Of a stretch of DNA of 64,000 nucleotides, positions 4,767-56,236 are shown piece by piece. The notes below the pieces were generated by a model. The model saw only the letters and a list, made by a program, of their open reading frames with translations. It was not told the DNA's origin and did no database searches. Position numbers and translations under genes: made by a program. The stretch covers positions 1-64,000 of the forward strand of contig NW_013651722.1 in NCBI RefSeq assembly GCF_000499385.1, given 5' to 3'. Each line of letters opens with the position of its first letter. The first letter of the stretch is position 1. The stretch comes from Eimeria necatrix. Its lineage: Eukaryota; Apicomplexa; Conoidasida; Eucoccidiorida; Eimeriidae.

Positions 4767-4979
4767 CCCTAAACCCTAAACCCTAAACCCTAAACCCTCA
4801 ACCTGAACGAAGCCAGTAACTGGCTGCTGGCCTGTAGATACACCTGGAGCCAGCCGCCGCCGCGCCAAACCCTCGGCGGCTCTGGCCTAGGGTTTAGGGT
4901 TTCCGAGGGTTTAGGGTTTAGGGTTTAGGGTTTAGGGTTTCCGAGGGTTTAGGGTTTAGGGTTTAGGGTTTAGGGTTTA
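4767..4979. repeat. Telomere-type heptamer arrays in both orientations
   Basis: AAACCCT units at about 4767-4799 and AGGGTTT units at about 4887-4979 face each other across about 90 bp. Opposite orientations and flanking unique DNA show that these are interstitial copies, not a chromosome end. Confidence 0.95.
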
Positions 4980-40877: not shown

Positions 40878-41001
40878 TCAGTCGTCCGGCAGGGGCCCCA
40901 CTTGAGGAGCCTTTAGGCCTTTCACGGCCAGCGTAAAGGACTCCACCTGCAGCCTGCAGCTCTCAAAGTCCGCAGCAACTGCCGCCCAAAGCGCCTGCAG
41001 A

Positions 41002-41034
<33 letters not shown>

Positions 41035-43875
41035 GGCGGCAGCAGCAGCATCAGCTGCAGGGTAGGAAATTGACGAGACCCCGTTACAGGCGCCTTTGCT
41101 GTGGCTGCTGCAACGCAGCAGCAACTGCACTGTTGCAGCGACTGCAGCAGTGAAACGGAAGCAGGCGCGGCAGCAGCTGCACAACAGCAGCAAAACACCA
41201 GCTGCTGCAGGAACTTCAGCCTAAAAGCCTTCCCCACCTCAAGGCAAAAGCCCGATGATAGAAGCGCAGCACTTGCTAGGGACTCGTAGACGTCCCCAAG
41301 CTGCTTAATCCACTTTGGCGTACTGCTGCTGTGGCTGTTGCTGCTGCTGCTGCTGCTATCATCCCTGGGCTGAGCAGCAGCAGCAGCAGCAGCAGCGGGA
41401 GTGTTGTGAGGGAGCGTCAAGCGTGAGATCAGTTCTGCTGCTTCTCGCGCGAAGTCCTCTTCAGGGGGCAGTTGCACGAGCCGCTGCGCAACCTGCTGCT
41501 TCTTGGCGCTGCTGCAGCGGCGGCAGCAGCAGCAGCAGGGGCCCCCAGCCCGCAGGCCGCAGCCCGCTGCTTCTGCCTGCTGCCACAGGCACGCCAGAAG
41601 GCTGCTGCCGGGGGGGGGCCCCTCCCCAGAGGCCCCATCCCCGGGGGGCCCCAAGCACAGGCACAACTCGAGCTGGGGGGCCCCTTGCCCGCTCTCGATG
41701 ATCAGAGACTCCAGGGGCACTCCTGCTGCATGCAGCCTGCGCAGCAGCAGCAGCGGCAGCAGCAGCAGCAGCAGCTTGGGTTCCCAGCGAAACTATCAAA
41801 AGCCATGGCAGTGTATGATGAAGTGCTGCAGCAGCTCGCCGTCGCCGGCAGAAGCAGCAGCGGGCTGGGAAGACAATGGAAAAGCAGCAGCAAACACCCT
41901 TTTGATCGAAAAGCAAAACACCAAAATGAAGCAGAAGCAGAAAAGTGAGAAGCAGCGAGACGCAGCAAGCTGGAGGCAAACCCGAGGTGTATATACACCG
42001 CCAGCAGCACAGCAGCAAGGGGAAACATGAATTCCCGGCAAATGGCGAAAACGAAAAAGACACAAACAGCAGCAGCAAGACACAAGTCCTCAGCTGAGAC
42101 TCGAAAAGCTGCATGCACAAGTTGGGGAGTTCCTGCTGCTGCTGCTATTGAGTCTGCGAAGCAGCAGCAGAGCGGCCGAGGCACTCGAAAGCTCATTTTA
42201 TTTTGCTTCTTTTGAATTCCTTCAAAGAGCCAAAACAATAAGACTTTCCCCGCAGCTGCTGGGCACCTGCGGATCATCTTGGCAGCAAAAAATGCATTCG
42301 AAACCAAAATACTTCTCGCCATTGTCAGGGGCCCCTCGCGGGCTTCTGGAAACCGCCAGAAGAGCCACTCAGACACCAGAAGGCTCAGCACAGAGTCCCC
42401 CAGAAACTCCAGCAGCTGGTAGCTTTCTTGGGGGCCCCCCTGGGGGCCCTCCTGGGGGCCCCCCGGTGCCTGCAGCAGGCTTGCAGCCACAAGGCCTCAA
42501 GGCTTCAGCAGATAGACTGGGCTCTTAAGGCCACAGCGCAAACAGACTCACACAGCACTGCAGCAAAACAGGTAAGGGTAGGGAAACTTGCAAAGCTGTA
42601 ACAGACTTGCTGCAGGGGCCCCAAATGGCCTTCTAGCTAGGGGGGCCCCTGATGCGCTGCTGCTGCGCTGCTGCTGCGCAGCTGCTGCGCTGCTGCGGCG
42701 TGCGTTGCTGACCTCTGTTGACCGGGCGAGAGCCACGAGGCGGGGACAGAGGCCCCTTTCCTTCCAAAATGCTGCAGCTGTTTGGCAGTCTAGTGCTTCT
42801 TGGGAGCAGCAGCAGTTAAGGAGGTCCCGCGCAGGGGCCAGCCACAAGTCTGAGACAGTCTGTTCTGAAATGCTGCTGCCGGCCGCGCTGCTGCTGCAGC
42901 AGGAAGCCGGAACCGCAGCAGCCTGCGGCTTGCTGCTGCCTTCGCGGGGCCCCCTCAGCAGCTGCTGCAGCAAAACAGCCACTCGGCGGTCGGGGTGCAG
43001 GGGAGCGTGGGGCACTCCTGCTGGCAGCAGCAGAGTGCAGAGAAAGTCCACTTCTGCTGGCTCTTCAAATGTGTCTTTGGGGTCTCTGGGGGCCCCCTGG
43101 GGGCTCAGTGGGGGCCCGCAGCAAATGGCTGCAGAGATTGCTGCTGCAGCAGACAAGATATTAACCACGGGGGGCAGCTGCTTCGCTTTGAGGCCCTTCT
43201 CAGGAGGCTCTTGAGGCTCTTGAGACTCCCCGGCGCCAGTGTGAGCCTGGGGCCCCTTCCCAGGCGCAGGGGGCCCCCCCTGCAGCACGAACTGCCCAAT
43301 GAAGGCTGCAGCAGCAAGGAGGCCCCCGAAGGAGCCGGGGGGCCCCTGCGGGCGCTGGTGGGGCCCCCCGAGGGGCGCAGCCCGCGTAGCGCCTTGGTGG
43401 GCCTCCGCGGGGCCCCGGGGGCCCCCCAAAAGGCCCCTGTTGGACAAGTAGAAAGCTGCAGTGAGGGCCTCCATGGCGTCCGCCAGCATCTTGGGGGAAA
43501 GGACTTGTTCTCTGAGTCCCGCAAGAGCAGCAGCAGGAATGAAAGGCCTCGACAGCAAGTAGCCCGCGAGGCCCAGCCCGCGGGCGCAGCTGTGCAGGTG
43601 GCAGTTGGAAACAAAAGAACTTTTTTGCTGCGTCAGGGCCCCCTCGGGCTCCCCCCCGAAGTTTGTCAAGAAGCAAAACGCTGCAGCCACAAAGCCCAGC
43701 ACTGCGTCCCCCAGAAACTCCAGCCTTTGCCAGTGCCACCGGCTGCCCCCGGAGTCCACGGCCCCCGGCGGCCGCGCGGCTTTGCAGGTGAGCGCAGCAG
43801 CAAGCAGCTGCTGCTCGAGGCCTGAGCGCACACGCAGCGCCGCAGCAGACGGGGCCGTCGCGCGGCTGCCGCCGC

Positions 43876-43926
<51 letters not shown>

Positions 43927-43940
43927 TGCACCAGCGCAGG

Positions 43941-43985
<45 letters not shown>

Positions 43986-46900
43986 GGCTGCTGTTGCTGC
44001 ACCAGCGCAGGTACTGCTGCTGCTGCTGGTGAGGCTGCTGCGCAGGCGCTGCTGATGCAGCAGCAGCAGCAGGAACAGCAGCAGCAGACGCAGGGCGCAG
44101 CCAAGGCTGCCCTGGGTGCAGCGACAGAAACAGCCAGACTCAAGAGGCTGCTGCGGCACAGGGACACAGCCGCATCTTTGCAAAGCTGTCTGAAGGAACA
44201 CAGCTAAAGTGAGGCCTAGGGGGCAGGGGCCCCTGCAGGGGGCCCCTAAATGGGCAGTTACGCGCCTAGCCGCAGGGGCCCCTGGGGGCCCCTCAGCTCC
44301 GTTTGTTGCAGCAGCCGCGCCTTCAGCTCGAAGTGGCCCGCGGCCACCTCTAGTTGGAAGAAGGCTGGGGCTAGCCACGTCAGTTGCTGAGAAGCAAGCG
44401 CAGCAGCAGCAGCAGCAAAACAGACTGCAGCAGCAGCTGAGCAGCAGCGCCTTACCGCGCCTGCGCACTCAGCGGCCTGGCTCCTAGATGCCAAGCAACG
44501 CGGCCTTTGCTATTGCCGCCTTTGGCTGAGTCACTATTCGCAGCAGCACCCTAGCAAACTAGTTTATGGGGACTGCAGAGGGGCCCCCGGGGGCCCCCGA
44601 AGGGCCCCGAGGGCCCCCAAGACCCTGTTAAGTGCGGGTCTTTCCCTTGGTGTGCCCGTCTTTCTAGCTGCTGAGCCTTTTCCTAGTGCTGCAGCGACTG
44701 TCCCGGCCTCTGCTGCTGCTGCTGTGCTGCTGGACCAGTGGCCCCCACCAGGAAGACTGGCTCAGTCCAGGGGCAGAGGCGGGCGCACTGGGGCACATAA
44801 GCTGTTAGCTGCTCCTGGGGTGCTGCGCTGCGGCCTGCAGCAGCACCTGGGTCACCCCTGGTGAGCCACCTGCAGCCCTGCAGCAGCGCAGCAAAGCCCT
44901 GTGAGAGTGCCTTTGAGAAAAGCCGGGCTGCTGCTGCTGCTGCTGCTGCTCTCCTTGCTCAAAAAGCCCAATTTGCTGCTGCCAGGGGCCCACCTGGCGG
45001 ATACGCAGCCCCCGCAGCAGCCAGCAATTGCCCAGGGGGCCCCTCTCCGGGTCTGGGTACGGCGGCACTAGCCGGACTCCGGCCCTTGCCAGCTGCTGCA
45101 GGTATTCTTCGCTGAGGGGGCCCCGGGGGCCCCCCCCTGGGTCAGTCATGCTGGGGCCCGTCCACGGGGTGTTCTGCAGCAGCACAGCAGCAGCAACGCC
45201 CCCACCTCAACCCTTTTTGCTACTTGGTGCTGCCCATCAGTGGGCTAATTAACGCAGCTTCAGGGGAAGAGCTGCAGCTGCAGCGGGAAGCCTCGCAACG
45301 CTGGACTCTTTGGGGGCCCCCACCTACCGCGGTGTCAATGGCCTGGAGAGCTATGTACCGGTAGCTGCGCCTTTCTTCGTGAGTCAAGCGGACCACTGGT
45401 CTCTCCAGCCCCCGCAGCAAAAGGGCCTTGAAGATGAAAAGGCCCTTCTGCGGGTGCAGACTGTCAAGGCCTGAGAGCGGCTCCAGGGCCCCTCGCCCCG
45501 TGCCGCCTGCGAGCAGCAGCAACAAAGAGCAGCAGCAGCAAAGGCCTCCTTTGCTCTGCTGCAGGGCCGCTGCTGCTCAGCAGCTGCAGTAGCTGCAGCT
45601 GCTGCAGCAGCTGCAGCAGAGTGCAAGCAGCCTGGGGAAGCCTCGAGAGCTCTTGAAACCCTGCATTCACTCTGCTGCAGCAGCATCAAAATGCAGGCAG
45701 CCTGGGGGCCCCCCGGAGCTCTAAATGCCAGCTTTCACTCTGCTGCAGCAGCAGCAGAATGCAGGCAGCCTGGGGGCCCCTGGAGCTTCTAGAGGCAAAT
45801 TTTAGCTCTGCAGCAGCAGCAGCAGAATGCAAGCCGCTTGGGGGCCCCGGAGCTTCTAAATGCCAGCTTTCACTCTGCTGCTGCAGCAGCAGAATGCAAA
45901 GAGCCTGGGGGCCCCCGGAGCTGTGGCTGCTGGTGAGGCACTCACCCGCCCTGCGGAATTCTTCAAAGGGGAAATGGACTTTGACGCAGCGCAGCGGCGA
46001 GCTGGGGGAGAAGAGAAGCTCCTCAGGAGGCAGCTCGGACTCAGCATTTGGCGCTGCTGCTGCTGCCTCTGCTGCAGCTGGGCCGCCCGGCAGCAGCAGC
46101 CCTGCTGCTGCAGCAAGCGGCTGCTGCTGCTGCTCCTTTAGAAGACGAAGAGAGGACTGGATCAGCTCCGAAGCCAAGCCAGGGGCCCCGAGGCCCCGCA
46201 CTGCGGCTCTCAGCGCCTCCTCGCCATGCATTTCCATTAAAGACCGAGAGGCCTCTTCTGGTCTCCTGCGGACAAACAGAGGCATTCGAGGGCTCCTGCG
46301 CATGCAAAGCTGCCCACAAACTCGTGCGCCTGCAGCAGCAGCAGCAGCAGCACCAACAGCAGCAGCAGCAGCAGCTTCAGCAGCAGCAGCAACAGCAGCG
46401 TCGGCTTCTGCAGCAGCAGCAGCTGCTGCTGCCCTATCTACGTGTGGGACAGCGGGAGTCACAAGAGGAGAAGAAGCCAAGAGGGGCGGCAGCTGCTAAG
46501 GCCAGAGGCCCGCGGGGAAGCCCCGCAGGGCACAGAGGCCGCGCTGCATGCAGCAGCTGGGGGGAGCTGCTCACCATTTGCTGCTCAAGGCAAAAGCAGC
46601 AAGCAGCCTGAGGCAGCACAAGTGCGCCAGGTCCAGCCCGCGGCCATCCCAAGCCAGCGGGGCCACAGCAAAAAACGGCAGCAGCACCCGGCGGCAGTCA
46701 AGAACCCCCCCCTTGCGCAGCTGCTGCAGCACGCTCTCTCCGGGGGCCTCGGGGGGCCCCAGGCGGCCACAGGGGCCCCCGGGGCCCCCGGGGTCCTCCT
46801 GGCCCCCGGAGCCGTTGGGGCCCCCGGGGCCCCCCGGGGCCCCTGGGCCGGCAGGCTCTGGCTGCAGCGAGGCGGTCTGGCCACAGTAAGCTCCGTGGAG

Positions 46901-48149
46901 AGCAGCAAAGGCCTCTTGTGCTGCAGCATAAAGCCCCAGGCTGGCGCTGGAGAGCTGGCTGGAGGGGGGCCCCTCCCAGGTCTCGAGGGCGGGCCGGCCC
47001 GCAGCTGCAGCCAGCAACGCCTCCCAGAGGGGGGCCCCCCCGCTGCTGCCCCTGGCCAATGGCCTGAAGCTCTCAATGCTGAGGTGCCGCAGCAGCACTT
47101 CGTGGGTCAAGACCTGCGCAGGGGCCCCACAGCAGCTCACAAACGCGCAGTCCGCGGGGGCCCCAGCAGCTGCCCAGCGGCGGCCCGCAGCAGCAGGGGC
47201 CCCTGGGGGCCCCCGCTCGCGTGGGGCCCCCTGGTGCTGCTGTGGGGCCAGCAGCAGTGTCAGTGGGAAGTTAATTTGAAATTCTTGCTGGGCCTACCAG
47301 CAGCGCTTTCAGGGCTTCTGCGTTGGGCACTTTTAACTTCATGTTCTCCCCAGGGGGCTCTATTTCAATTCTTATGAGGCCCTCTTCTCCCGGGGTCTCA
47401 GGCTCCTCACAAATGCTATCTGCGTCGCTCGTTTCGGGGGGCCCCCCTTCCTCAGGGCCACTCTCTTCTTGGGGGCCCCCTGCTTCCCCCTGGGCAAAGC
47501 CAGGGGGCCCCTGCCAAGTGCCCAGAGGGTGCACTCCGTGAAACACCACAGCTTCCGGCAGAGGCGACGGCAAGAGAATCGCTAGTGGCTGCAGCAGCAG
47601 CAGCAGCGGCAGCAGCAGCAGCAGCAGCCACAGCAGCAGCGAGAACTTTTGCGGGCCTGCCGCGCTGACAGGATATGGAATAGTCTCACAAGGGCTCTTA
47701 CCTGCAGCACAGATGATAAGGGTCTATCTGGAAACAGCTGCGACAGCAAGTTTGCTGCGGCTGCCTTTGTTTCAGGCGTCACTGCTGCTGCAGCTCCTGC
47801 TGCAACTCCTGCTGCAGCTGCTGCAGCACGCGCTCGCTTGCTGCTGAAGGGCGCCCAGTACCCCAACAGACCCCCACTGTCATACACAGGGCTGTCGGGA
47901 AGGGGGAGGTCTGTCTCAGTCATAGGGCTACTCTTTGCTGCTGCTGCCGCTTCTCTTTGCTGCAGCTTGCTCTGCGTCTGCTGCTCCTGCTGCAGTTCGG
48001 GCCAAGTCAGCGGGGTGCACCAGACGCGGTGTATGTACAGGTCGACGGAGTGTTCAGTCCTGGGCACACACGAGAGCGACGCCGGGCAATTCTGCTTCAC
48101 CCTGTTGCTGCTGCTGCTGCTGCAGCGCCAGAGTCGGCGCTGCCGGCCT

Positions 48150-48180
<31 letters not shown>

Positions 48181-49169
48181 ACGGAGTCACAAACTGGGCA
48201 TCTCACGACTGAGGGTCTTGCAGCATTTCGCGTAGGGACTCTGGCGCGAGGAGGCTCTGGGGAATTTGTCTCCACATTCTTTCTCCGCCGCAGACAGCGC
48301 GTTCTCCCGTTGCTGCTGCGGGGCCCCTGGGGGCCCCTTCTTGCTGCTCGGGCAAGACCGGCTGCAGCAGCAAATTGTCGCTGAGGACCCCCAGCGCATG
48401 CAAACGCTGCAGGGCCTTCACTGCGAGGCCCTCCCAGGCTTCTCTCCAGTCCAGGGGCCTCTGCGTCTCTGCAAATTTCAGCTGCAGCTTCTCGGGCTTT
48501 ATTGGCGTTTCCCTAAACCCTTTAAGTGGGGGCAGCTCGAGGGCCGGGGGGCCCCCGGGGCCCCTGCGAGCCCGCAGGGGCCCCAGAAAGAACAGGGCCT
48601 CAGCAGCAGACCCTCGGGCCTCTCTAAAGCTGCTGCAGGCGGGTTCTCTGTAGCCTTGGGCCAGCACTTGCTGCAGTAGGGCCCAGGCCCTGCTGCAGGG
48701 CACAAAGGCCCCCGTTGCAGCCACATGGAGTCCGGGCTTTTGGTGGCCTGGGGGCCCCACAGGAGCTGCAGCAAGAGGGGCCCCCTGGGGCCCCGCAAGC
48801 CTCCGCAGCAGAGAGATGTGCTGCAGTACTGGGTACAGCTCGAAGACCACAGAAGCTGCTCTCTGTGAGCTGGGCCCGGGGCGGGTTTTGCTGCTGCTGG
48901 AGAAGGGCACGAGGGGCGGGGCCTCAGCAGCAAAGAGCAGCACGAGGGGGGAGGGCTCTAAGCATGTGCGCGCTTTGCTGCTGCAGCAGGCAGCAACCTG
49001 CAGCAGCTCGCTCGCCTTCTGGGGGGCCTCCGGCACCAAAACCAGCCCGTAGCTGCTGCTCCCAGCTGCATGCAGCGCAAGCTGCGGACTAGCTGCAACA
49101 AGCAGCCTCAGAGGGGGCCTCTTTCGAGCTTCCCAGCCCCCCAACCCCGCCGCTGCCCCGCTGCCGCGT

Positions 49170-49204
<35 letters not shown>

Positions 49205-50993
49205 CGCGCTGAAGGCCGCACAGGGCCCCCCCCTGGCCAAGAGGCACTCCACCTCTCCGAGGCCCCGGGCCGCGAGGTAGAGGCCCAAGCACCAGGCAGC
49301 AGTTTTGCTGCTGCAGACAATGAGGGCCCCCTCCGCGCTGCAGGGGCCCTCTTTGCCGGGGAGGCTGCAGGGGCCCCTTCCCAGGGGAGGGGGCCCGTGC
49401 TCTGCTGCAGCAAAGCCACAGAGGGCCCTGTCAAGTGCAGCAAGTCGAGGGCTGAAGAGGCCCCGCAGCACTTCCCCAGCCAGGCGGCGGCAGCAAGCTG
49501 CAGCCCCGGGCCCCAGCCCCTTCCCCTGCAGCTGCTGCTGCAGCAGCTGCATGCAGTTTTGCTGCTCCCCAGAGACCCCAAAGTGCAGCAAAGCCCCCAC
49601 AGTGCTGAGGCCCCCGCTGCAGTAGGCCCTGTAGTGCTTCAGTGCTGGCTGGCGCACGAAAGCCCCCAGAAGCTCCATGAAAAGAAAACAAATCCCCAGA
49701 TCCACACGAAGCTGCAGCAAGTAGGGGTCCGGCCTGAGGGGCCCTGCGGGGGCCCCTCCACTTCCAGGGGGGGCCCCTGTCTTGAAGTCCCCCGCAAAGG
49801 GCCAGAGCAGCCAGGGGGGCCCCCCAGCGTCGTCAACAGGGAAGCAGTGCCCTTGGCAGCTGCCTGAGGGGCCCCCCTCATGGGGGCCTCCTTTTGACTC
49901 CTCCAAGCAAGAAGACCCTCTTGGCTGGGGCCTTTTAATCTCCGTGCGAGGGGATAAGGAGCCGCCACAGGGGGGCCCCTCGGGCCCTAGGAATGGCTGC
50001 CACTCTAGAGGGTTCGGGGCCAGCTCAGCGCCAGGGGCCCCAGGGGCCCCAGGGGCCCCGGGGGCCCCGGGGGCCCCTGGGGCCCCCTGGGGGCTTGCGG
50101 CAGGGTACACGGGGGCACCAGTGAGGGCGAGGGCCCAGCGGTTGAGTTTGGCCCGGAGTCTTCCTGCTGCTGCGCAGAAGCACCAGAAGCCCCAGTCCTG
50201 CTGCATGCGCAGCAGCGCAGCACGAAGCTGCTTCCAGCGAGCAGCAGCAGCCCGTTTGTGGGGCGGGGAGAGAAGGCCAGCGAGCCTTCGCATGCAGCAG
50301 CAGTTTGCTAGCAGCAGGGGGTGGCCTTTGAGCTGCAGCGCCACAGCCTCCAGCAGCAGCTCCCCGCTCTCCCGCAGCGGCTGCTCCCAGGCCTCCCGCA
50401 AGCCAGAGTTCCCCGCGTTGGGGTGGGGGCCCTCTTGGGGGGGCCCCTCTTGGGGGGGCCCCTCTTGGGGGGGCCCCACAGGGGCCCCCTGGGCCTCTCC
50501 CGTAGCCAGCTCCTCCGAGGCTTCTGGGGAACAGCTCACTTCCAACTTGCTGCTGCTCCTAAGTGCATGCGCCAGAGCAGCATCGCAGGCTGCCAGTATG
50601 GCGCTGACAGCTTTGGTAAAGGCCCGGCCACGGGGGCCCCCTGGGGGGCCCCCCTGTGCTGGGAGCGATGGGGGGGTCGGGGGCCCCAGGGGGCCCTGGA
50701 TAGCTGCTGCTGCTGCAGCTGCCGCTGCTGCAGCAGCTGCCACCTCCTCTGCAGCCCAGTAAGGGGCTTCTTCGGGCTCGTAGCGAACTAGGCCGAGGTC
50801 AGGGGGGCCCCCGGGGCCCCAAAGGCACTCTGCCAATAAGAAAGAAGAGCAGCAAAGGCCTTGCAGCAGCCTCTTTAGCTGCTGCAAAGCTGCCATTGGG
50901 TTGCCCAAGGGGGGGCCCTCAGTAGTGCAGAGAATGCGCGGGAGGGAGGAGGCCCGGGAGGCGAAATCCGCCATGAGGCTCTCGTACGCCCCC

Positions 50994-51030
<37 letters not shown>

Positions 51031-52401
51031 CGCCGAAGCTTACCCCGTCCAGCAGCAGCAGCGCCACGTCTTCCAGCCGCAGAAAGCCGTGCATCAAAAG
51101 AGACACAAAGACAGACACCGAAGAGACAAAGACTCGAGGCCATCTCACAGCAGCCTCGCTGTTGACTGTTTCTTCCCAGGGGCGAAAAAAGTTCTCCGCA
51201 GCTGCACTGGGGGGCCCCCCGGGGGCCCCCAGGGGTCCCCCGGGGGCCCCCAGGGGCCCCCCGGGGGCCCCCAGGGGCCCCCGAGACTGCAGCGCCTCGC
51301 GCTGAGACCTGGCGTACCGAAAGGGAGCTAGGGGCTGGAGGAGGTTTAGCTGCTGCCTTTCTTGTGGGGTCCTTGGGGGCCACGGCAGCTGCAGCGCAGC
51401 AGCAGCAGGCCCACAGCTTGGGAGGCTATTTCTTCTTTTTCTCTCAGCCTCTGGCTTTGCCTTTTTAGTCTTTTTGGTTTCTTTTGTTTCTTTAGTCTCT
51501 TTAGTTTCTTTAGACTTTTAGTTTCTTCAGTCATTTTAGTTTCTTTAGTCTCTTTAGTCCCTTAGCTGGCAGCAAAGGCTCCTGCTGCAGCTGGAGGATT
51601 TAATGCGCCCTGCTGCTGTGTGCTGTACATACACCTAGCCATAATTAGTGTAGCTGTTAGGCTGCGCTCTGCGCATGCACTGCATGAAGCCACGGGGGAG
51701 GGTTTAGGGTTTAGGGTTTAGGTTTTAGGGTTTGGGGTCCGCGCTTGTGCTGCTGCTGGCTGCTTAGCTGCAGCAAAGCTATGGGGCCCCCTTACCCCTT
51801 TTTGGTCCCTGAGGGCCTCGCTGAATTCTTTAAGGGCCCCCCGGTAGGCTTCCCAGGTGGCGGGGGCCCCCCACTTGGCCTGCAGCTGCGTCTTTTGCCA
51901 GAGTTTCTCTCTGTAGTCTGCTGCTGCTGTTGCTGCTGTGCTGCGGGGAGCGCACAGCCGCACAATCAGGGGGTGGGGCCCCTCGGCGGCGCCCCCGGGG
52001 GGGCCCCCCGGGGTGCTGCAGTGGCCCTGCGGGTGCTGCAGCAGCAACGCAAAGGCCCGCTGCAGGGCCCCCTGCAGCTGGAGGGCCCCCCGCGGAGTTG
52101 CTGCGAGGCAGCAAATGGTCTGCGAAGCCACAGAGAAGTTCTGCAGAAAAGTGTAGACCACCAGGGCCGGCAGCAGCAGCAGCTCGCGCCTATTCAGCGG
52201 CAGCCACAGCATGCAGTTGCTGCGCACTGCAGCATCATATGCTGCTGCTTCTTCGGGCCCCAGCGAAATGCCCTGCAGCCCTGTGCAGCGCCACACGCAC
52301 CCAGCAGCAGCAAGGGGCCTCAGTGGCTGCTCTGGGGGCCCCCCGGGGCAGCTCAGGGGGCCTGGGGGCCCCTAGCTGCGGCCTTCGCCGCAGGGGCCTC
52401 C

Positions 52402-52440
<39 letters not shown>

Positions 52441-53546
52441 CCACAGCAGAGGGGCTGCTGCGGGGGCCCTGCAGCACGACCGCAGACGCAGCAGCAGGCT
52501 GCAGACTCACTCAAACCCTCAAGAAAGCTGCGGGGCAGCGGCTCCACGTAAGAGCAAGGGGGCAGGGGGGCCCCTGCTGGGGGGCCCCTAGGAGGAGGGG
52601 TTTGCTGCTGCCCGCAGCTAGAAAGCTTCTGTGGCTTTTCTGCGGGCCTTTGCAGACTGGGGGCCCCCTCAGGCTTCCCTGCAGCAGAGGGCCCCCTCTC
52701 TATTGGGGGTTCAGTGGGGAAGGGGCCCCTGGGAAGCAAAGAGGCCCTCGAGGTGGGGCCCCCTCGCAGCGCTGCTGCCCGCTGCAGCTGCTGCGAGGAG
52801 CAGCTACGGGCCAAGGGGGGCCCCCCAGGTACCCTTTCCCGCTGCGGGGTGCTGCTGCTTGCTGCAGGCCTCACTGAAGCCCCTGAGGGGGCCCCCACGC
52901 GGTGCTGAAGGGGCTTCAGGGGGGCCCCCAAGCTCTGCAAAGAAGCGCCCACAGCCCCCCCCAGAGGGCTCCTTGGGGCCCCAATAGAGGTACCCTTGGG
53001 GGGCCCCAAGGGTTTTTCTATTAAAGGCATTTTGAGGCCCCCCGCAGCTCCTCGAGAGGGTCTCCCTGAAGCCTGAGCGCTCAGGGGCCCCCCGGGGCTC
53101 AGGGGCCCCCCGGGGGCCCCTGAGTCAGCCAGCCCCGAAGGGGCCCCCAGGCCCGCAGGCCCCCGTGAGGGGCCCCGAAGGCCTCCCAGGGGGGCCCCTG
53201 TAGACCTCAGGGGGCCCCCCAGGACAGCACCACTCACTGGAGGGGCCCCCGGGGGCCCTCTGGCCAAGGCCCCCACTCCCCGTGGCTGGCCCAAACCCTC
53301 AGCAGGTGAAGAGCCTAGAGAGCCCAGGAGGCCCCGGCCCTTAATAGATCCCGGCAGAGCCCTAGGGCCCTCCTGAGGGGGGCAGGGGGGCCCCCTGGCT
53401 GCGCCCCTGGCGGGGCCCCTCTGGGGTCCGCAGGGCCCCCCTGGGGGCCCCGGGGGTCTCGCGGGGCCCTCCTGCTGGCTACGGAAGCTGGCTGGGGCCT
53501 TTCTGGGCCAGGGGGGCCCCCAGCCGCGGCTGCTGCCGGAGTCCAT
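40878..53546 (-). CDS. Dicer-like RNase III protein with degenerate helicase
   Basis: A double-stranded-RNA endonuclease of the RNA-interference pathway by family. Phase-consistent exons: 53546-52511, 52280-51796, 51388-48207, 48101-47702, 47588-47298, about 47230-46575, 46265-45946, 45470-45328, 45173-44994, one candidate near 44.9-44.7 kb, 44386-44262 and 44189 onward (RNase IIIa). RNase IIIb is split between about 42.45-42.267 kb and a last exon ending at the stop at 40878. Domain order is a low-complexity Gly/Pro N-terminus, helicase, Dicer dimerisation, platform/PAZ, RNase IIIa and RNase IIIb, which is the canonical Dicer order. The predicted protein is roughly 3,000 residues, against about 1,900 for animal Dicer, because of homopolymer and Gly/Pro insertions. 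The start at 53546 is the first in-frame ATG (MDSGSSRG); the true start could be elsewhere. Exons 10 and 13-14 are less certain. Confidence 0.85.
41215..42430 (-). other. RNase IIIb domain, split by an intron
   Basis: One exon has [20 protein letters not shown] and [20 protein letters not shown], ending at donor CGCAG|GTGCCC. The last exon has [20 protein letters not shown], the second RNase III signature (GDxxES, with catalytic Asp and Glu). All four acidic residues are present. The splice phase between the two exons is not resolved. The intron region carries a near-palindrome at 41986. The protein continues about 100 residues beyond, without a recognisable double-stranded-RNA-binding domain. 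Confidence 0.85.
43440..44189 (-). other. RNase IIIa domain
   Basis: After a Gln/Ser/Ala-rich stretch, the exon reads [39 protein letters not shown] and [20 protein letters not shown], then [20 protein letters not shown]. The RNase III signature LEFLGD gives the first acidic pair (Glu, Asp) and LADAMEA the second (Asp, Glu), so all four metal-binding residues are present. A Gly/Pro-rich insertion and about 300 further residues in the same frame follow before RNase IIIb. Confidence 0.9.
44994..48101 (-). other. Platform and PAZ region of the Dicer-like protein
   Basis: Exon 4 gives [20 protein letters not shown], exon 5 [15 protein letters not shown], exon 6 [20 protein letters not shown], exon 7 [20 protein letters not shown], exon 8 [13 protein letters not shown] and exon 9 NTPWTGPSM then [20 protein letters not shown]. 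The [17 protein letters not shown] and EEYLQ parts follow the order of a PAZ fold (strand, Leu/Thr-Pro-x-Ser, Ser-Tyr-x-Glu-Tyr, then the QPLL position). All junctions from exon 4 to exon 9 keep phase. Several pieces are weakly conserved, so the PAZ call rests on order and context as much as on sequence. Confidence 0.65.
45556..45910. repeat. Intronic minisatellite, period about 65-72 bp
   Basis: Four to five imperfect copies of CTCTGCTGCAGCAGCAGCAG, AATGCAGGCAGCCTGGGGGC and CCCCGGAGCTTCTAAATGCC joined in order. It lies within the Dicer-like gene's intron between exons 45470 and 45946 and mixes the CAG and GGGGCCCC families in one unit. Confidence 0.9.
48207..52280 (-). other. Degenerate Dicer helicase and dimerisation region
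   Basis: Exon 2 has [14 protein letters not shown], then LNRRELLLL where Walker A (TGxGKT) should follow Pro, then [20 protein letters not shown] for motif Ia. Exon 3 has [20 protein letters not shown] followed by [14 protein letters not shown], aligning with Dicer's LxxEDIxLLIFDECHH, then YESLMADF and [15 protein letters not shown] (usual TASP motif). The second lobe is traceable at [19 protein letters not shown] and [20 protein letters not shown], but the SVAEEG and QxxGRxGR motifs are gone. The exon ends with [20 protein letters not shown], matching the C-terminal part of the Dicer dimerisation domain. A GTAAGC inside the Walker B region (about 51038) could start a short in-frame intron, but the DECH residues would still be missing. 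Confidence 0.8.
51690..51740. repeat. AGGGTTT array in a Dicer-like gene intron
   Basis: About five heptamers, one with an extra T, inside the intron 51389-51795. The intron also holds a near-palindrome copy (51622) and a TTTAGTCTCTTTAG-type T-rich block. Confidence 0.85.
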
Positions 53547-54643
53547 CGTGGGCTCTGGGGTGTCTCGGGGCCGTCGGCTGCGGCCTTCTATGCATTGGGG
53601 GCCCCTGGGGGCCACCAAACAGCAGCAAAGATAAATTAAATGGCTGAAGATGGGAGGTGTGGGGCCCCAGCAGCCGCTGAGGCCGTCTCCTGGCCCTTCG
53701 CGGCTGCGGCTGGGGGCCCCCCGAGGGTCTCTCGGCTAGGGGNNNNNNNNNNNNNNNNNNNNNNNNNNNNNNNNNNNNNNNNNNNNNNNNNNNNNNNNNN
53801 NNNNNNNNNNNNNNNNNNNNNNNNNNNNNNNNNNNNNNNNNNCCCCCCCGAGTGTCTCTCGGCTAGGGGCCCCTGGGAGAACCTCTGAGCCTGGGGCCCC
53901 AGTAGCCTCTGTCAAGTTCAAATTGAGAAGACTAAATTGGATATAGTGGGGCGCTTTACTTTTAGAAACCGAAGGAAGCTAGAAGGCAGCCTTGCGTAGC
54001 AGCAGGGGCCCCCGCGCCGGTGGCTCTGTGGCGTTGCTGTTGTTCTGCTGCTGCCGCTGCTGCTGCTGCTGCTGTTAGCTGGACCCAAAGGCGTCTCCCG
54101 AGTTTGCTTTTCCTCTGGTTTCTTATTCCTTTATTTAATATTCACTTCAAACAGCGTTTCTTGCTGGAGTTCCCCTGTGCGGACCAGAGAGCAGCAGCAG
54201 GAGGCAGGGGCCCCTCGCCTCCTTCTTCGTCCACCTTCCTCTGCGCCCTTTCGCCTCCGTCATTTCCGTCTTTTCTGTATTTTACAACTCATTTCAAAAA
54301 GTGCATCAACGGGCCTTCTCGAGCCTGCTTTGGGCCCCACGCCCACCCCCCAGCGAAAGGGGGCCCTGGGGGGCCCCCGCGGCTTGCTGCGCAGCAGGAA
54401 GCAGCAGCTGACTGCACCTGTGGCTTCTAGCGAGCTGCTGCAGTTATTTCTGCTTCAAAGAGTCTCTTTTTGAGGAGCTGCAGCGTTAAACTGGCCCCAG
54501 CCGCAGCTGCTGCTGCCCCTGCACAGCACAGCGCAGCAGCAGCTTCAGCGCTGGCCCTTAATACCCAGCGAGGCCTTACTGAGCAGCAGCGGCTTGCCGA
54601 GCGGGTGTTCTCGGGCATTGAAACTCCCTACACACTGCATCAG

Positions 54644-54885: not shown

Positions 54886-56091
54886 ACTGCTGCTGCTATT
54901 GCTGCTGCTCTTGCTGCTGCTGCCCCTGCTGCTGCTCTTGCTGCTGCTCTTGCTGCTTCTCTTGCTGCTGCTCTTGCTGCTGCTGCTCTTGCTGCTGCTG
55001 CTCTTGCTGCTTCTCCTGCTGCTGCTCTTGCTGCTTTTCTTGCTGCTGCTGCTCTCGCTGCTGCTGTTGCTGCTGCTGCTCTTGCTGCTGCTGCTCTCGT
55101 TGCTGTTCTGCTGCTGTTGCTGCTGCTCTTGGTGCCGTTTCTTCTACGGATGCTGTTTTTTGTACTGCTGGTGCCCTTGCTCTGCTGCTCTTTCTGCTAA
55201 TTCCCTACTCTGCTGCTTCTAGTGCTGCTGCCCTTGTTGCTGCTGCCCTTGCTGCTGCTGGCCGTGTTGCTGCTGGCTTTATTGCTGCTGCCCGTAAGGC
55301 TGCTGCTTCCACTGCTGCTGGCCTTGCTGCTTCTGGCCCTGTTGCTGCTGCCTTCATCGCTTGTGCTCTTATTGCTGCTGTGGTTATTGCTGCTGCTGCT
55401 GCTGCTGCTGTGCTGCTGCTGCTGCGCTGCTGCTGCTGAGTGTCTGTAGTGCTTTCTGGGGCTGTTCTAGGGCAGCCTGCCTGCGGTGTACAGACACAGC
55501 TTACCTCTAAGTTGCTGCGGCCCACAATTCCCGATTTAATTATTTTTGATTTCTTTTCTTTTTTTAATTTCTTTTATTCTTTTATTTCTTTTATTCTTTT
55601 GTTTCTTTAAACTCGCAGGAGACAGCGGAGTGGGCAAAAGCAGCATGCTGCTGCGCTTTGTAGAGGGGGCCCCCCACCTGCCCCAGGGGCCCCACAGGGG
55701 GCCCCCCCGAAGGGGGGCCCCCCACGGCAGTCCCTGCAGCGAGGGCCCCCACGGCGAGGCCCGCAGCGAGGGGCCCCCCGAGCAGCACTCTAAGGGGGCC
55801 CCCCACGAGAGCCACCAGAACGGGGTGCCCCACGGGGGCCCCCACGGGGGCCCCCAGGGGGGCCCCCATGGGGGCCCCCACGGGGGCCCCCACGGGGGCC
55901 CCCACGGGGGGCCCCATGGGGGCCCCCATGGGCGCCCCCGGAGGAGGGGCCCCCACTGGATGCCGCCAGCACCCACAATAGGGATTGACTACAGAAGCAA
56001 AACTCTGCAGCTGGAGGGCAAAATAGCGAAAGTTCAAGTTTGGGATACTGCAGGACACGAGAGATTCAGAAGCGTCACACAGGGTCAGCTC

Positions 56092-56123
<32 letters not shown>

Positions 56124-56236
56124 GCTGCTGCTGCGTTGGTGCTTCAGCGCTGCTGCTCCTGCGGCGGCTGAGTTCGGCTAGTTTTTTTGCGGTGGCAGCG
56201 GCTGCTGCGGCATGGCATTGACTGCCGTTGCAGCAT

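Follow-up and report, generated by a model that had tools for sequence, protein, structure and literature searches.

Dicer enzymes with a degenerate helicase are already known, with Drosophila melanogaster Dicer-1 as the foremost example: as described in the excerpted parts of PMC10328071 and PMC7827160, this enzyme combines a degenerate helicase with an intact tandem of RNase III domains and acts independently of ATP. In the mouse, ATPase-dead Dicer alleles are viable, deletion of HEL1 is lethal, and HEL1 forms a lock with RNase IIIb (PMC9645528, in the excerpt drawn upon). Among the coccidia, Toxoplasma gondii has a Dicer (Tg-Dicer) with a helicase and two RNase III domains and without a recognisable PAZ or dsRBD, according to the excerpted text of PMC2877743, and Et-DCL of Eimeria tenella is described, in the corresponding part of PMC9353057, as having two RNase III domains and no recognisable helicase, PAZ or dsRBD. 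Here, we consider the Dicer gene of Eimeria necatrix, which lies in a window of 64,000 nucleotides (contig NW_013651722.1, positions 1 to 64,000 of the forward strand) to whose numbering all coordinates refer unless another contig or a protein is named. Its N-terminal part is probably a pseudo-helicase descended from a Dicer helicase, one that has lost its ATP motifs, kept its HEL1 part under constraint and would have taken on an ATP-independent structural role beside nucleases that would cut without ATP threading.

When the RNase III part was used as a query, the protein search yielded seven matches, namely three Eimeria orthologs (E. media P0003, E. stiedai P0004 and E. intestinalis P0005, of 2696-2974 amino acids and each named hypothetical protein) and four other Dicers (P0006-P0009). 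E. media, E. stiedai and E. intestinalis are parasites of the rabbit. No sarcocystid or chicken Eimeria ortholog was returned by the ortholog protein searches, which gave only the three Eimeria proteins, plus P0006-P0009 in one search; these searches were length-limited, two of them scoring the best 8000 candidates only and the third having 149 candidates. The features of the gene, as placed with the help of these proteins, are the following:

40881..53378, minus strand: whole Dicer gene (spliced alignment and colinear tblastn matches of E. media P0003)
51796..52280, minus strand: HEL1a exon with the Q-helix, the strand before Walker A, the Walker A position and motif Ia (boundaries agree in both models)
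52180..52197, minus strand: Walker A position, LNRREL, where the orthologs have LERR (ortholog alignment; register by rank test)
48207..51388, minus strand: exons with motifs Ib, II and III, HEL2i, HEL2 and DUF283/Dicer_dimer (spliced alignment and hhalign blocks)
51038..51049, minus strand: motif II position, DGVS for DECH (ortholog alignment; register by rank test)
50912..50941, minus strand: motif III position, 10 residues (ortholog alignment)
49061..49111, minus strand: motif V position, 17 residues, weak register (ortholog alignment)
48980..49000, minus strand: motif VI position, QVAACCS, weak register (ortholog alignment and rank test)
43439..43729, minus strand: RNase IIIa domain with four acidic residues kept (PF00636, E 3.9e-17)
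42267..42479, minus strand: first half of RNase IIIb, with the first acidic block at 42386-42415 (PF00636, E 1.2e-9 at 42272-42415; spliced alignment)
41238..41736, minus strand: second half of RNase IIIb, with LGDVYESL at 41277-41300 (tblastn, spliced alignment and ortholog alignment)

The names and canonical forms of the helicase motifs are those known for the family, and they were compared against P0007-P0009. At the Walker A position, E. necatrix reads LNRREL and the three orthologs read LERRQV, LERRPG and LERRQA, GxGKT thus being absent from all four proteins. Motif II is DGVS in E. necatrix, with the Asp retained and the Glu, Cys and His gone, and DC.. in the orthologs (4/4 without DExH), whilst the motif III region is PRILGLIRGP in two orthologs as against PRIFGMTASP in P0007 and PKVFGMTASP in P0008. 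At the motif VI position, where the register is weak, QVAACCS in E. necatrix and RAVAACR in all three orthologs stand in place of QxxGRxGR. The replacement of Walker A by LNRREL and of DECH by DGVS, as claimed by the original prediction, is therefore confirmed in the sequence, and the losses are common to four species; its further claim that motifs V and VI are replaced is less firm than it was put, both being placed in weak register only. Which acidic residues of RNase III are catalytic is known from the family, and all eight of the tandem are present in E. necatrix, E. media and E. stiedai (8/8), just as the claim of two intact nucleases had it. The E. intestinalis protein keeps 4/4 of the testable ones, only four of the eight being testable because its model ends before RNase IIIb; the motif IV part is likewise missing from this model, and its HEL1 contains additional sequence, which is probably a retained intron.

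An artefact of assembly, sequencing or gene modelling that conceals intact motifs is one alternative explanation of such losses. The sequence is indeed GC-rich and repeat-rich and includes a run of N at 53743-53842, which no modelled exon overlaps, and exon boundaries derive from ortholog-guided alignment rather than from transcripts. However, the proteins of three other species bear the identical losses, which disfavours sequencing error, and a six-frame scan of 36-58 kb, which an intron-split motif would escape, found no GxGKT, GxGKS or DECH-like motif on the minus strand, and hence no alternative exon there that would supply an unaltered Walker A or DECH. In the same interval, the only QxxGRxGR-like strings on the minus strand are one at 53075, within the low-complexity exon near the N-terminus, and a looser one at 48157, in an intron; the sole Walker A lies on the plus strand at 55618, in a frame that resembles a Rab GTPase by eye. 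No frame shift was seen at the Walker A and motif II sites, across which the window frames align with the three orthologs. An artefact is thus extremely improbable.

The gene model itself is a single minus-strand gene of about 53378-40881, obtained by ortholog-guided spliced alignment, with 17 exons (2813 amino acids) when guided by E. media P0003 and 16 when guided by E. stiedai P0004; tblastn matches between P0003 and the window are colinear from 53366 to 40881, and stop-to-stop minus-strand frames contain the motifs that had been named beforehand. Boundaries are identical in both guided models for the exon 52280-51796 and for the exons from 48059 to 45328, and 48207 and 52280 are the outer limits of the helicase-plus-DUF283 exons, whereas the start codon and first exon are not fixed. 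The inner introns of 48207..51388 are uncertain (50539-50393 and 49968-49852 with E. media as guide, 50223-49852 with E. stiedai), and all of them fall in a single open frame. Some exon boundaries are probably wrong, and the GT-AG introns of the model are no independent evidence because the script accepted no others. Over aligned columns, the model shares 46% identity with E. media (1233/2688), 47% with E. stiedai and 44% with E. intestinalis. As a side observation, TTTAGGG telomere-like repeats are found at 51700-51735, in the intron that separates the Walker A exon from the motif II exon, and a second TTTAGGG-like stretch starts near 4907.

With regard to homology, hhalign was used to compare a profile built from the helicase regions of the four Eimeria proteins with one built from the Dicers P0006-P0009. 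In this comparison, the motif-II block reaches 66.8 (E 1.1e-6), as against 29.9 for the best of 200 column shuffles, none of which attains its score (0/200), and 25.7 for the reversed profile; the DUF283 block comes in order after it, with a score of 48.1 against a best shuffle of 29.9. Taken as single blocks, HEL1b, DUF283 and RNase III are significant, and HEL1a, HEL2i, HEL2, the platform, the middle and the PAZ-like block are not. Pfam DUF283/Dicer_dimer matches are weak, with E 0.053 and 0.12, under the cut-off, in two of the three orthologs and none in the third. A profile search of the PDB gave 32 distinct sequences at E up to 1, of which DCL4 and DCL3, the two top sequences, match best on the motif-II block, as does AncD1D2, an ancestral Dicer helicase matched on this block alone (E 1e-4, or 0.0012 with the three-ortholog profile); the remaining sequences match best on RNase III, save for one chance match.

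The register of the lost motifs was examined by an ungapped test that omits the motif itself, the query for Walker A being the stretch of 20 residues that precedes TGSGKT in three Dicers. This query puts the expected site first among the 2676-2954 positions of every one of the four proteins, and first of 2199 when the four are combined (21.4 vs 9.9), a window from -12 to +22 giving ranks 5, 12, 1 and 1; likewise, the 30 residues preceding motif II rank first in 4/4 proteins. For motif VI, the preceding residues rank first of 2832 in combination by 4.8 vs 4.7 and third or fourth in single proteins, and with the motif included in the query the ranks are 1, 1, 2 and 7 (combined score 6.2 vs 0.8). 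Motifs V and VI are accordingly the weakest part of the claimed motif loss. For the motif-II block and for the Walker A and motif II registers, sequence comparison places the N-terminal helicase in the Dicer/RIG-I ancestry.

The distribution of constraint along the protein was assessed between the window and E. media, within block limits set by the analyst. HEL1a (over P0003 318-470) is identical at 83/152 positions (55%) and HEL1b at 58/105 (55%), with 29/66 in the stretch between them; RNase IIIa reaches 70/130 (54%), the first half of RNase IIIb 60/91 and DUF283 92/181, so that the conservation of HEL1 is on a par with that of RNase IIIa but falls short of that of RNase IIIb. At the Walker A site, the RSNCxLWLPLxRR block has 11/14 invariant columns, the same number as the block of RNase IIIa that contains the first acidic pair; among 1239 gap-free 14-column windows, 29 are higher than the Walker A block and 65 are equal to it (both blocks included). 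Conservation of HEL1 equal to that of RNase IIIa argues for a constrained pseudo-helicase over plain decay, and suggests that the HEL1 framework may have been retained as a structural part that is no longer a motor.

Several results weigh against a constrained Dicer pseudo-helicase and have to be set beside this evidence. The Eimeria orthologs are predicted proteins; the Walker A part alone is not significant by hhalign, since 66/150 shuffles equal it, although its best placement is the correct site, where 4/150 shuffles land too; the 16 residues after Walker A misfit the Dicers (combined rank 175 of 2203); HEL2 alone is not significant; and the two AlphaFold models, one of HEL1-HEL2-DUF283 and the other of HEL1 supplemented with pieces of two canonical Dicers, are unusable (mean predicted local distance difference test, pLDDT, 31.4 and 38.0, respectively). 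Finally, HEL2i (93/271, 34%) and HEL2 (79/222, 36%) are less conserved and could be decaying. Some of these observations, together with the lack of significance of HEL2i by hhalign and the lack of any Pfam helicase match at E up to 10 in ten window frames or the three orthologs, would be expected if a lineage-specific sequence merely resembled a Dicer helicase by chance. Such a coincidence is nevertheless very improbable in view of the motif-II block that beats 200 shuffles, the PDB matches, the rank tests and DUF283 in the correct order. Others would be expected of a decaying relic under weak constraint in a Dicer reduced to its nucleases, as the identity of HEL2i and HEL2 is similar to that of the linker that joins the two nuclease domains (67/204, 33%). 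This is also quite improbable, since HEL1a and HEL1b match RNase IIIa and exceed the 46% of the whole protein, the sequence that replaces Walker A is conserved in its own right, and the window frames are open through HEL1.

The preferred explanation, a Dicer-descended pseudo-helicase, can be put as follows. The N-terminal domain would derive from a Dicer helicase that lost the ATP-binding loop and the catalytic glutamate, and also, with weaker support, motif VI. HEL1, under strong constraint, would most likely be an ATP-independent structural part that keeps the enzyme closed through its contact with RNase IIIb and aids the admission or positioning of double-stranded RNA (dsRNA), as HEL1 does in the mouse, and neither RNase III domain would depend on ATP-driven threading along long dsRNA for its cuts. 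A strongly constrained HEL1, a less constrained HEL2 and the absence of the ATP motifs fit, as we infer, such a mouse-like role; lack of ATP use, a scaffold or lock function and non-processive cutting are what the sequence would predict. The original interpretation is thus upheld in part: the motif losses in four species support the reading as a pseudo-helicase, and the nuclease residues are intact, whilst ATP independence and a scaffold role are predictions. A bolder and more doubtful possibility is that the P-loop was rebuilt and not merely lost, the conserved WLPLxRR giving HEL1 a new ATP-free job, either as an arginine pair gripping RNA ends or phosphate or as a permanent lock on RNase IIIb.

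It might also be that ATPase work is done in trans, the pseudo-helicase docking a separate active helicase, like worm Dicer with DRH-1, so that the complex would depend on ATP. Many helicase matches exist in the genome, searched exon by exon: 45 Helicase_C and at least 37 DEAD matches (32/56 DEAD candidates scored), none of them on contig C218. A motif scan of 7 ResIII loci, in contrast, revealed no DECH, the DEAD (37) and Helicase_C (45) matches not having been individually examined for it. On balance, a partner in trans is unlikely, and a Dicer free of ATP use throughout is preferred.

A single Dicer was found in the genome (44.0 Mb, 1148 contigs), because Pfam RNase III matches only at 43439-43729 and 42272-42415 of the window; as the profile search was run exon by exon, this count is a lower bound. 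Two other whole-genome searches gave no match and are uninformative, that with a fungal Dicer because it missed even the E. necatrix Dicer, and that with the Dicer_dimer model because the controls were not matched either. For a platform-PAZ, Pfam gave no match, and none of the hhalign matches was significant. The stretch in its place (P0003 1460-2200; window exons 48059-44749) shows 53-65% identity between the window and two orthologs, and is possibly a hidden platform-PAZ.

Other candidate parts of the RNA interference (RNAi) pathway lie elsewhere in the genome. An RNA-dependent RNA polymerase (RdRP) gene at C178:84993-88922 matches in five pieces and contains SGGDLDGD, which we take to be a form of the RdRP catalytic motif; within one of the matched pieces there is a TAG, which may point to an unrecognised intron. 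At C187:107475-107720 there is a PAZ domain, and a whole-genome search with the Piwi model gave no match. Downstream of the PAZ exon (C187; L010:2768-3571), a frame resembles PIWI by eye, with VGIVGGTN and LLIYRSSPSG at what are presumably slicer positions usually occupied by D, Pfam and the PDB giving no support. Within the window, a plus-strand frame at 55540-56181 resembles a Rab GTPase by eye and is interrupted by a long GGPHGGPH repeat.

If the reading of a constrained pseudo-helicase is correct, loss of the Dicer motor would also have arisen among the apicomplexans, at a great distance from animals, by motif replacement with the HEL1 framework kept under constraint. If, in addition, the Toxoplasma helicase is active, which the domains published for it suggest, the coccidia would provide a natural before-and-after pair for a Dicer that went over from ATP-driven to ATP-free action, and would do so in a lineage whose RdRP still has its catalytic motif. 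Four species with nuclease residues intact wherever the models reach would allow testing whether the structural role is separable from ATP. More generally, pseudo-helicases may lie concealed in Dicers to which family models assign no helicase, and this would alter how the domain history of RNAi in parasites is read. No degenerate helicase in an Eimeria Dicer was found in the open-licence literature searched, nor any paper that treats a Dicer under the name of pseudohelicase; new here are the motif loss in both helicase halves, the conserved PLxRR replacement and, likely, a correction of the published view that an Eimeria Dicer is without a helicase.

Drosophila Dicer-1, with which the Eimeria protein shares a degenerate helicase beside intact RNase III domains, probably keeps a recognisable Helicase_C, and the Eimeria Dicer proteins have no Pfam Helicase_C match; moreover, it belongs to an unrelated lineage and coexists with an ATP-using Dicer-2, whereas only one Dicer was found in E. 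necatrix. Mammalian Dicer offers a likeness in its HEL1, structural without need of the ATPase and locked with RNase IIIb (PMC9645528, in the excerpted part), but its ATPase residues, according to the excerpt of PMC10328071, are kept, and in Eimeria they are replaced. Giardia Dicer likewise has no helicase activity of its own, as would hold for the presumably ATP-independent Eimeria enzyme, with the difference that its helicase domain is, in the excerpted account of PMC3566956, wholly absent. In Tg-Dicer, compared here by description only, helicase and DEXDc are recognisable as published (PMC9353057, same excerpt). Et-DCL, finally, has been published as helicase-less, whereas the E. necatrix gene and its three orthologs keep a degenerate helicase, so that family models may simply have failed to recognise the domain reported as absent.
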